Below, piece by piece: positions 51,743 to 54,122 of a DNA stretch of 64,000 nt. The position numbers and the translations under genes are program-made. Within the stretch, counting starts at the first letter, position 1. Every line of letters starts with the position of its first letter. Below the pieces are notes generated by a model. That model did no database searches and was not told the origin of the DNA. It worked only from the letters and a program-made list of their open reading frames with translations. Source of the DNA: an uncultured Alphaproteobacteria bacterium (lineage in GTDB: Bacteria; Pseudomonadota; Alphaproteobacteria; Rhodobacterales; Rhodobacteraceae); the NCBI GenBank assembly GCA_902578545.1, contig CACHDI010000001.1, forward strand, positions 62,001 through 126,000. Direction: 5' to 3'.

Positions 51743-52663
51743 TTATTTACCATGGATGATGTTTAGACACATTTTAGGCAGATCGTTCATTGTATAATCT
51801 CTAGCTCCCTTTTTCTTTTTTATAATCGTTTTCTTTTTATTAGGATCTGGCGGTTCTAAAGCTTTAGTAACCCACCAATACAATGTATTATCACACCCTG
51901 TTGGACTTTTTGAAATTTGAGTTACGGTAGGTTTTTGTTTAACACATTCAGGAGAGGCTTTTGGACATTTTAGTCTTACATGAAAATGAGAATGATGGCC
52001 CCATATAGGTCTTATTTTTTGAAGCCATTTCTTTGATCCTTCCATATTTTCACACATCCAAATTTTTGCAGGAGCGTTTATAAATATTCTATCTACACGA
52101 TTGTCTGATGCTGCCGCCTTTAATATTTTTGCATGATTTAAAGTCCAATTATTATTGACCTCTTTTAAATTTTTTTTTCTAACAGATACTGCTTTTATTT
52201 TGTCTCTCTCTTTTTTTGTAAGGGTTAGGCTTTTTGGCGGTGTTAACCAAATATCAACATCTAGACCCGTTTGATGGGATTGATGACCATATGGCATTGG
52301 ACCCCCTCTAGGAGCTGCAATATCTCCTATATAAAGTCCTTTCCAACCTATTTGAGTTGCTGATTTACTTAAATCTTTAATATAGCTAATAACAGATGGA
52401 TGTCCCCAATTCCTATTCCTACTTGGTCTCATAATTTGCCAATTGGGTCCAGTATCGCTTAATTGTACACCTCCACTTAAGCACCCTTTTGCATAAAAAC
52501 CAATAGGTTTGCTTTCACCTACTGTTGGTAAATTGAATTTTTCAAAGATTTTATTAGCAGGTAAATTTTGATTGGGATCGTGCCCAAAGCTGGGTTTCGT
52601 TAATAGTAGAAAGAGAAATATTAATAATTTTTTCCTAATATAAAACACATGTTTTTTTCCCAT
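51743..52663 (-). CDS. mepA: penicillin-insensitive murein endopeptidase
   Basis: Periplasmic LAS-type zinc metallopeptidase cutting meso-DAP cross-links. The 306 residues have a signal peptide (about 1-27, ending KPSFG). The metal ligands lie in GHQSHQTGLDVDIWL (H127/H130 and the D-x-D at 135-137) and in WGHHSHFHVRL near 223-233. Paired cysteines (such as C61) may form the disulfides typical of MepA. The C-terminal tail is lysine-rich. The start lies 29 bases inside the upstream small gene, so translation is probably coupled; a GTG at 52648 is an alternative start. Confidence 0.92.
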   Translation of the reverse strand: MGKKHVFYIRKKLLIFLFLLLTKPSFGHDPNQNLPANKIFEKFNLPTVGESKPIGFYAKGCLSGGVQLSDTGPNWQIMRPSRNRNWGHPSVISYIKDLSKSATQIGWKGLYIGDIAAPRGGPMPYGHQSHQTGLDVDIWLTPPKSLTLTKKERDKIKAVSVRKKNLKEVNNNWTLNHAKILKAAASDNRVDRIFINAPAKIWMCENMEGSKKWLQKIRPIWGHHSHFHVRLKCPKASPECVKQKPTVTQISKSPTGCDNTLYWWVTKALEPPDPNKKKTIIKKKKGARDYTMNDLPKMCLNIIHGK

Positions 52664-52874
52664 TATTTTCTATTGTGCACCAAAAAAACTCATTATCGAA
52701 TTCAACAATTACATGTTTATGGTCACCTTCCTCTATTGTTTCTTGAATTATTCCTGATTTGATTAATTTTTCTGCTTCTTTCCCTTCGTAGTAATCTTCG
52801 CTGGAAAATGCAGTTATCACTGAAGTCATAAAAAAAAAATTTATAAATAGAAATAGTGAAAAAATCATATTCAT
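52635..52874 (-). CDS. small exported protein of unknown function
   Basis: 79 residues with a signal peptide (about 1-23, FSLFLFINFFFMTSVITAFS), leaving a mature peptide of about 55 residues rich in acidic residues. It contains EEGDHKHVIVEFDNEFFWCTIENNGKKTCVLY, whose two cysteines may form a disulfide. It resembles no family known to me. It overlaps mepA by 29 bases, so it is probably made together with the endopeptidase and could act in the periplasm with it. Signal peptide, composition and overlap favour a real gene. Confidence 0.65.
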   Translation of the reverse strand: MNMIFSLFLFINFFFMTSVITAFSSEDYYEGKEAEKLIKSGIIQETIEEGDHKHVIVEFDNEFFWCTIENNGKKTCVLY

Positions 52875-52899: not shown

Positions 52900-53391
52900 T
52901 TATTCATGTACATCTAAATATGCTTTTCCAAAACCTTCAACAAAAATTTTTTTTTGTTCTGTAAATGAGTAGAAATTAAAATCCGTAAACATTCCCCACA
53001 TTTTAGCACCAGGTTCTATTTTATTGTAATTTTGTAACAACATTTGAAATTTAGGATCATCCTTCTTTAATTCTAACTTTTTAAAAAGACCTTGAAGTGT
53101 CAATCTTGGATTATTTGATTTTATTTTGTGTTTTTCCTCTTGGGCAAAGTATAAAGATGCATAAGGATTTAAATTTAAATTTTTTGTATGTTCGCTCAAA
53201 TCACTAATAAGAAGATAAACAATATCGTTATAATTCATTGGTATAACTTTAGTAACCATAGGGAACCCTGTATCATCAATAGTTCCTAAAGCAGCCTGTT
53301 GATAATTGCCATTAATTATTTCTTTTATTTTAATAGAAATTTCATCGGTTATTTTATGTGTTAGCGATACTTTTTTTTCCATGTTACACAA
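52900..53391 (-). CDS. HugZ-like pyridoxamine-5'-phosphate-oxidase-fold protein
   Basis: 163 residues of the split-barrel FMN-binding fold. The N-terminal strands AALGTIDDTGFPMVTKVIPMNYNDIVYLLISDLSEHTKNLNLNPYASLYF (about 35-85) match the HugZ/PPOX-like pattern of an FMN- or haem-interacting protein. FTDFNFYSFTEQKKIFVEGFGKAY near the end fits a HugZ-type C-terminal part. A haem-related or flavin-reductase role is likely but not shown. It is upstream of the small exported gene by 25 bases on the same strand. Confidence 0.75.
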   Translation of the reverse strand: MCNMEKKVSLTHKITDEISIKIKEIINGNYQQAALGTIDDTGFPMVTKVIPMNYNDIVYLLISDLSEHTKNLNLNPYASLYFAQEEKHKIKSNNPRLTLQGLFKKLELKKDDPKFQMLLQNYNKIEPGAKMWGMFTDFNFYSFTEQKKIFVEGFGKAYLDVHE

Positions 53392-53426
53392 TAAAAAAAG
53401 AAATAATTAATACGGACTTAATCTTA

Positions 53427-54122
53427 CTAATTTGAGAATAAATTATTATGAGGGGATTTTTCAAGCTTTTTACCCAATTTTTTTTCTTCTTCGTCTGTAT
53501 AACTAAAAAATCTTCCAAGTAAAGTTTTTCTCTTTTTTAATCCAATCAACCTAATTTCTGAAACAGCAGACTGTTGAATATTTTCCAAGTGAGCTTTAGC
53601 AGGCACTGCGACATGAGGTTCAATATATTCTCTCTCTAAAGCAGCTTTAATTCTTTGGATAGCATCACTCTTGATTCTTGCAATCCTTGATATTGCAGAT
53701 CTTTCAATTCTTTTAGTTTCTCCTGCGAATTCATTAAGCTGATTTTGTGTTGGCTCAGGTATTTTTATAAGGATGTGAGTAGAATTTACTATCCTATTTA
53801 CTTGTTTAAAACCATTCTGTTTAATTATGGAAATTATATCATCTATTAAATTTTCACGAAAAATATTTATTCTAAAACTATCCAAAGATTTTTTTTTAGA
53901 ACTATTTTCTTCCTCCTCCTCTTCATTTATTATTTCAGAGAAATCGGACAACCTGCGATTTTTACCCTCTACTATCAATCTAACACCGTAAAGGATATTT
54001 TTATAAGCATCTTTAGAACCTACAACGTTAAGGTCTTCTACTAAAAAACTTAATATATCTTCTGTTCTTGCCATAGCGGCTAACGAGTATGAGTCTAAAG
54101 GTGTGTCGGCATCAAATTTCAT
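53427..54122 (-). CDS. unknown protein with a ribosome-recycling-factor-like domain
   Basis: 231 residues, not a known housekeeping factor. About residues 84-200 resemble RRF: a strand-rich segment, ILIKIPEPTQNQLNEFAGETKRI (compare the RRF pattern I-R-I-P-x-P-x-L-T-E-E-R-R-K-E-L), followed by a long coiled helix, ISRIARIKSDAIQRIKAALE (compare IRNIRRDA-x-D-x-LKK), and a second helix ending in LKKRKTLL. An unrelated N-terminus (1-60), an acidic linker (EEEEEE near 66-72) and a charged tail surround it. The true frr gene would be elsewhere. A ribosome-associated role is inference; a plain coiled coil is the alternative. Confidence 0.6.
   Translation of the reverse strand: MKFDADTPLDSYSLAAMARTEDILSFLVEDLNVVGSKDAYKNILYGVRLIVEGKNRRLSDFSEIINEEEEEENSSKKKSLDSFRINIFRENLIDDIISIIKQNGFKQVNRIVNSTHILIKIPEPTQNQLNEFAGETKRIERSAISRIARIKSDAIQRIKAALEREYIEPHVAVPAKAHLENIQQSAVSEIRLIGLKKRKTLLGRFFSYTDEEEKKLGKKLEKSPHNNLFSN

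Follow-up and report, generated by a model that had tools for sequence, protein, structure and literature searches.

A family of proteins with the predicted fold of ribosome recycling factor, often encoded beside flagellar motor genes in alphaproteobacteria

Ribosome recycling factor (RRF), the product of frr (PF01765, TIGR00496), is to our knowledge a core translation factor of bacteria, normally encoded in single copy. The same two-domain fold is predicted for the protein analyzed here, RRFL1 (RRF-like protein 1), which differs from the frr product by a C-terminal extension, an N-terminal Tyr-Ser motif and the pair Arg56-Arg57. Its model also has the fold of the mitochondrial and chloroplast RRFs, found on ribosomes in solved structures, according to the titles of the PDB entries. 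On the motility side, YcgR/PilZ proteins are known as stator regulators: RRFL1 and its relatives would be alike in action if they worked as a signal-dependent brake or clutch of the motor, but are unlike in fold, that of RRFL1 being the RRF one. Lineage-specific flagellar accessory proteins of unknown function are also described in the available part of PMC11974857, namely the conserved motility proteins CP1-CP4, which belong to the fla1 flagellum of Rhodobacterales and occur only with fla1 clusters; the likeness to our family is one of description alone.

The RRFL1 gene is located at 53427..54122, on the minus strand of the window, i.e. the whole stretch of 64,000 nucleotides that was analyzed; it starts with ATG and encodes 231 aa. 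An initial annotation, made from the sequence alone, had noticed a domain resembling RRF in this region, which was confirmed both by profile comparison and by structure prediction. Residues 81-202 match positions 44-164 of the Pfam RRF profile (PF01765) with 32.0 bits and E 1.3e-7: since the curated cut-off is 29.7, the match is more than chance. In a Pfam scan up to E 5, RRF was accompanied by one chance match and nothing else. RRFL1 falls outside the profile of frr proper, the equivalog TIGR00496, with 18.1 bits where the cut-off requires 149.1. No RRF was found when RRFL1 was compared as a single sequence with PDB chains; with a profile of the whole family, the best 21 matches among PDB chains were all RRFs, up to E 3.3e-14, the mitochondrial and chloroplast ones being matched less well than most bacterial RRFs.

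The AlphaFold2 model of RRFL1 (pLDDT 87.1, pTM 0.76) shows the RRF fold; at E<=0.001 it has 26 matches in the PDB, RRFs without exception, the best of them with Z 15.6 and rmsd 4.6 over 183 aligned residues (residues 8-204). Whole-chain matches mostly range in rmsd from 4.6 to 7.7, and the angle between the two domains may therefore differ in RRFL1. In the model, residues 11-33 (54024..54092, minus strand) form the first helix of RRF domain I, as indicated by DSSP and by the alignment; the family motif D-S-Y-S, at residues 10-13 on the same strand, overlaps this helix. Residues 46-121 (53760..53987, minus) approximately correspond to the beta/alpha/beta domain II, carrying the family-specific Arg56-Arg57 and, in the alignment, a genus-variable insert at residues 67-80 (53883..53924, minus), acidic at first and then lysine-rich. 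Two long helices, 126-163 and 169-205 (53508..53747, minus), complete domain I, with Lys151 aligned to the position of E. coli Arg132, while residues 206-231 (53430..53507, minus) extend past the canonical RRF end and feature a short extra helix. The L-shaped arrangement of a three-helix bundle and a beta/alpha/beta domain is thus found in RRFL1 as a predicted model. Together with the profile score above the cut-off, the modelled fold places RRFL1 within the RRF superfamily (PF01765). Two details of the initial annotation need revision: the N-terminus, described as unrelated, is modelled as helix 1 of RRF, and a paralogue matches the profile from position 2; the acidic run at residues 67-72, taken for a linker, belongs to an insertion in the beta/alpha/beta domain and does not join unrelated parts.

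The genome containing the window (G000, 83% complete) carries three RRF-like genes. The canonical frr (206.7 bits) is found in a tsf-pyrH-frr-cdsA context, its genes being named by reading; RRFL1, which is 18% identical to the frr product over aligned pairs, lies outside any such context. The third gene, RRFL2 (P0002, contig C10), shares with RRFL1 31% of the aligned residues and covers positions 2-164 of the RRF profile with 27.7 bits, slightly below the Pfam cut-off of 29.7, as is the case for another relative, P0005 (29.4 bits). RRFL2 is also modelled as an RRF fold (pLDDT 89.2), all of its 26 PDB matches at E<=0.001 being RRFs. As judged from their sequences, RRFL1 and RRFL2 are two paralogues of one family, here named RRF-L, apart from canonical RRF; the presence of two copies per genome may serve two inputs or provide a pair of subunits. 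The suggestion of a divergent RRF-like protein thus holds, both for the divergence of RRFL1 and for its presence beside a normal frr.

Divergence was evaluated in an alignment of 13 canonical RRF and 30 RRF-L proteins. RRFL1 retains 7 of the 23 columns invariant in the canonical rows, and only 2 of 11 invariant charged ones: the counterparts of Lys141 and Lys178 of the frr product of the same genome are kept, while those of Arg29, Arg110, Arg111 and Arg130, among others, are lost. The position of E. coli Arg132, located from the difference between the wild-type chain and the R132G mutant (chain 1ise), is occupied by Lys in 28 of the 30 RRF-L proteins (Lys151 in RRFL1); this being a conservative change, a weakened ribosome contact is possible in RRF-L. 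Whole-protein net charge was uninformative for RRFL1. Features conserved within RRF-L, at 90% at least in 43 rows, are Tyr12-Ser13, Arg56, Lys151, Glu165-x-Ile167 and Gly203, all of them present in RRFL1 (P0001), itself one of the 43 rows.

In the tree, the 30 RRF-L rows and the 13 canonical ones are parted by a 100/100 branch, at which, as the program warns, long branches meet. The sister row of the window clade (98/87) is a fusion protein of the genome G249, described below, whose placement, this being a long row, is less sure. Non-saturated pairs give dN/dS values of 0.04-0.12 (RRFL1) and 0.02-0.04 (RRFL2). RRFL1, for which the initial annotation had proposed an ortholog search, is conserved in relatives and under purifying selection. 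A decaying or neutral duplicate of frr might be suspected from one genome (G005), where the RRFL1 frame is split into two pieces in a MAG contig (L064:6001-6680), either by assembly error or by loss. Such a reading is contradicted by the dN/dS values and by the existence of a deep separate clade extending across several families, and is highly improbable. That RRF-L is an RRF-fold family distinct from the recycling factor is well supported.

A mobile or viral origin of RRF-L was also considered and discarded. No match was found for RRFL1 in phages at E<=1 or in PHROGs, nor for RRFL2 in plasmids at E<=0.001; a scan of viral contigs, reaching close relatives only, revealed none of RRFL2. No PADLOC family was matched, nor any viral fold at E<=0.001, and the one PHROG match of RRFL2, to a virion protein, was weak (E 0.0013).

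Within the genus of the window, RRFL1 was found in 8 and RRFL2 in 9 of 12 genomes, that of the window included, many of these genomes being incomplete; at least one copy is present in 10 of the 12, and neither was found in the other two (G004 and G007). Named relatives from the genus (15 loci) come from single-cell genomes and MAGs labelled as uncultured Alphaproteobacteria, Rhodobacteraceae or Paracoccaceae. Neither gene was found in the 25 genomes searched from the rest of the family. A draw of 385 genomes from the class gave 10 matches to RRF-L at E<=1e-8, one of which (G053) reads as a canonical-like frr. RRF-L was also found in two further groups: the order of G249, probably SAR116, where 71 of 121 genomes match at E<=1e-11, or 70 after removal of one (G785) matching only at the canonical RRF level; and f9, a family of 1.4-Mb alphaproteobacteria, where 28 of 32 genomes match, or 27 after removal of G916 for the same reason. 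One further genome outside these three groups, G186, contains RRF-L. To see whether RRF-L had been missed, 22 genomes were searched again with a larger RRF-L profile, which produced three rows at 37-51 bits, i.e. at the level of canonical RRF, and none of those without RRF-L gained one. A wider occurrence in Pseudomonadota was rejected: 58 of 398 genomes match at E<=1e-11, but scores above 68 bits are found only in the genome of the window, and 16 of 19 other matching loci that were fetched read as canonical RRF.

Linkage to motor genes was counted over 57 loci: the 30 listed for G249's order, without omission, and 27 of the 30 listed for f9, where two fragments and one canonical frr were left out. 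RRF-L adjoins motB within the fetched flank in 41 of these 57 loci, which come from related genomes and are thus not independent events. In the order of G249 both MotA and MotB are encoded inside the fetched flank at 22 of 30 RRF-L loci; in f9, MotB and a conserved protein, c10, accompany RRF-L at 19 of 27. Four loci (L163, L164, L165 and L166) feature the same-strand order motA-motB-rrfL, and at L163 the neighbors were confirmed by Pfam as MotA and MotB; at two f9 loci (L153 and L170) RRF-L is preceded by c11 and c10 and lies close to motA-motB, but is encoded on the other strand. For flagellar genes beyond those of MotA, MotB, FliM and FlhA, names were assigned by reading or from resemblance across loci. 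The linkage to motB is present in two RRF-L subclades, the L102-L119 type with f9, and L107. No flagellar marker is found in the flank of 7 of the 27 f9 loci, mostly those of the second, P0004-like copy.

The combination of an RRF fold, the loss of most invariant charges and a frequent motA-motB neighborhood in relatives suggests that RRF-L is probably a relative of a translation factor re-used for swimming. The best-supported function, for which we see about even chances, is that of accessory or regulatory parts of the flagellar motor rather than of ribosome-splitting factors. RRF-L is related to RRF by descent and would, on this reading, have been recruited to one specific kind of alphaproteobacterial flagellar motor, RRFL1 being a putative cytoplasmic accessory or regulatory part. 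The initial annotation had instead proposed a role in ribosome splitting, hibernation or rescue. A specialised ribosome factor of this kind, including alternative recycling, might act at the inter-subunit site of RRF, perhaps under stress, and would suit the full-length RRF fold of the model, the prevalence of Lys at the Arg132 position and the two retained lysines. Against it stand the invariant charged residues that RRFL1 has lost (9 out of 11), the TIGR00496 score and the tie of the relatives to motAB, in 41 of 57 loci next to motB; it appears quite unlikely.

Co-occurrence with flagella was examined by means of a profile of the MotB type, run on 80 hand-chosen genomes, which included four known to be FlhA-positive and RRF-L-negative. 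The profile splits them clearly, 22 scoring 566 bits or more and the rest at most 95, or showing no match at E<=1e-20. RRF-L and the MotB type occur together in 16 genomes, RRF-L alone in 6, the MotB type alone in 6 and neither in 52 (Fisher p 1.2e-7, uncorrected for relatedness). Of the 121 genomes in G249's order, 54 have RRF-L and FlhA, 16 RRF-L only, 27 FlhA only and 24 neither, with OR 3.0 and p 0.005, relatedness being uncorrected; restricted to the 41 listed genomes with a completeness of 90% or more, the corresponding counts are 21, 4, 9 and 7 (p 0.056). No association was found in f9 (23, 4, 4 and 1; p 0.60). RRF-L and FlhA thus agree only loosely in the order, and not in f9. Single genomes depart from co-occurrence in either direction: G779, a single contig, has FlhA and the MotB type and no RRF-L at E<=1e-5, and G781, 99% complete, has motA-motB-rrfL and no FlhA match. 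Taken together, these observations indicate that RRF-L is not a required flagellar part, which fits a regulator more than a structural component, or else fits the rival readings.

In the genome of the window, inspection of the two loci found neither RRFL1 nor RRFL2 adjoining flagellar genes. Its motor cluster, on contig C6, reads rpoN, motA, motB, a 718-bp gap, c10, c11, c15, c16, flhB, fliR, fliQ, fliP and, further on, fliM and fliL, with MotA, MotB and FliM confirmed by Pfam. This is the layout of L164 and L166, minus RRF-L at the motB/c10 junction; a possible remnant of RRF-L in the 718-bp gap was sought by tblastn and not found. FlhA is present in all of the 6 tested genomes of the genus. 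Of the 12 genus members, 8 carry the MotB type, with profile scores of 566.6-586.6 bits; it was not found in the 29 others examined from the family, which reach 88.7 bits at most. Among the examined genomes of the family, RRF-L and the MotB type are both confined to the genus of the window. The absence of this MotB type from the 29 other genomes suggests that the flagellum of the genus (L198, L199, L174; contigs C6 and C2 of the window's genome) was horizontally acquired. In a Rhodobacterales survey, as far as the available part of the preprint goes, three flagellar types are distinguished, two of them horizontally spread (PMC11974857). Between motB and flhB, the genome of the window (L198:14870-16457) encodes the uncharacterised proteins c10, which matches DUF2628, and c11, as do L153, L164, L200, L201, L202 and L204; in L203 c10 alone was recognized, and neither is beside motB in L163 and L165. 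To judge from this position, both are candidates for motor accessory proteins.

Some RRF-L genes are associated with sensory modules. In G249 an RRF-L protein is fused to a BLUF blue-light sensor (L156:8069-9313, on G249:C1, minus strand; Pfam scores of 85.4 bits for BLUF and 32.8 for RRF), about six genes away from genes reading as flhF, flhG and a flagellar sigma factor. Eight further loci, including both loci of the window's genome and differing in flank length, have a cNMP-binding protein in the flank in 3 cases, adjoining RRF-L in L160 and L172 and two ORFs off in L171, and no marker in 5. A cNMP-binding-like protein of the same sequence cluster is encoded at a distance of about 5.3 kb from RRFL2 on contig C10 of the window's genome (L161:14999-15400). 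In f9, the second copy of RRF-L (L154:10116-11378 and L155:1365-2537) lies near a photolyase-like gene, with FAD_binding_7 at 71.1 bits in L154; no flagellar gene was noticed near it in these two loci.

RRF-L might, on this basis, be a general signalling effector (light, cyclic nucleotide, redox) acting on a target other than the motor; in some lineages the linkage to motAB would then be just an inherited neighborhood. Besides the BLUF fusion and the cNMP-binding proteins, this would account for the HutZ/HugZ-like gene downstream of RRFL1 in all of the 7 genus loci and for those RRF-L copies that, in several lineages, lie apart from flagellar genes; it has to face the motB linkage in two separate subclades and the joint restriction of RRF-L and the MotB type to one genus among the family genomes examined. 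We hold this alternative to be unlikely. Under the preferred reading as a motor accessory, RRF-L would most likely contact the stator, at the MotA loop, or the switch, as the gene context may suggest, and might tune the motor on a signal from the fused or neighboring module; both steps are speculative. In its most specific form, the proposal gives surface-ocean bacteria a signal-gated brake or clutch, made of paired RRF-fold proteins and working on the MotA/MotB stator, whose input would differ by lineage: blue light (BLUF), cyclic nucleotides, heme or flavin. This version is conceivable, if doubtful.

The RRF-L family is apparently new. No literature joining RRF with BLUF, or the RRF domain with flagella, was found in a search from which most subscription journals were outside; judged by titles and beginnings of abstracts, none was found on an RRF protein tied to flagellar motA, nor on a bacterial RRF paralogue among the matches listed. 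The available parts of PMC12262181 and PMC10308909 do not mention flagella or motility. If the motor reading is correct, a universal translation factor would have been exapted as a component of the flagellar motor: a selected family, retaining the RRF fold without most of its invariant charges and located in motAB loci, would represent a striking change of function, and would offer a handle on the control of swimming in genome-reduced bacteria.

Within the window, the next gene downstream of RRFL1 begins after 35 nt and encodes a HutZ/HugZ-related split-barrel protein (heme utilization; 52900..53391, minus strand), identified by the Pfam domains CREG_beta-barrel and PNPOx_N and scoring 47.6 bits with the HutZ profile, below its cut-off of 225. 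The two genes are probably co-transcribed, and the same transcription unit probably includes a 79-aa protein (52635..52874, minus), recognized from the ORF list and by locus comparison. A penicillin-insensitive murein endopeptidase (Peptidase_M74 in Pfam) follows at 51743..52663, minus. Upstream of RRFL1 lies a divergent gene for a thiamine-diphosphate enzyme, which, together with the HutZ-like gene, flanks RRFL1 in all of the 7 genus loci. When the window is compared with a contig of G001 (L059), identity amounts to 95-99.5% for the HutZ-like gene, the 79-aa protein, the murein endopeptidase and the 2OG gene, but to 88% for RRFL1 and 62% for the thiamine-diphosphate enzyme: as far as this pairwise comparison goes, the region right downstream of RRFL1 (53391-53427 of the window) looks like a recombination breakpoint.
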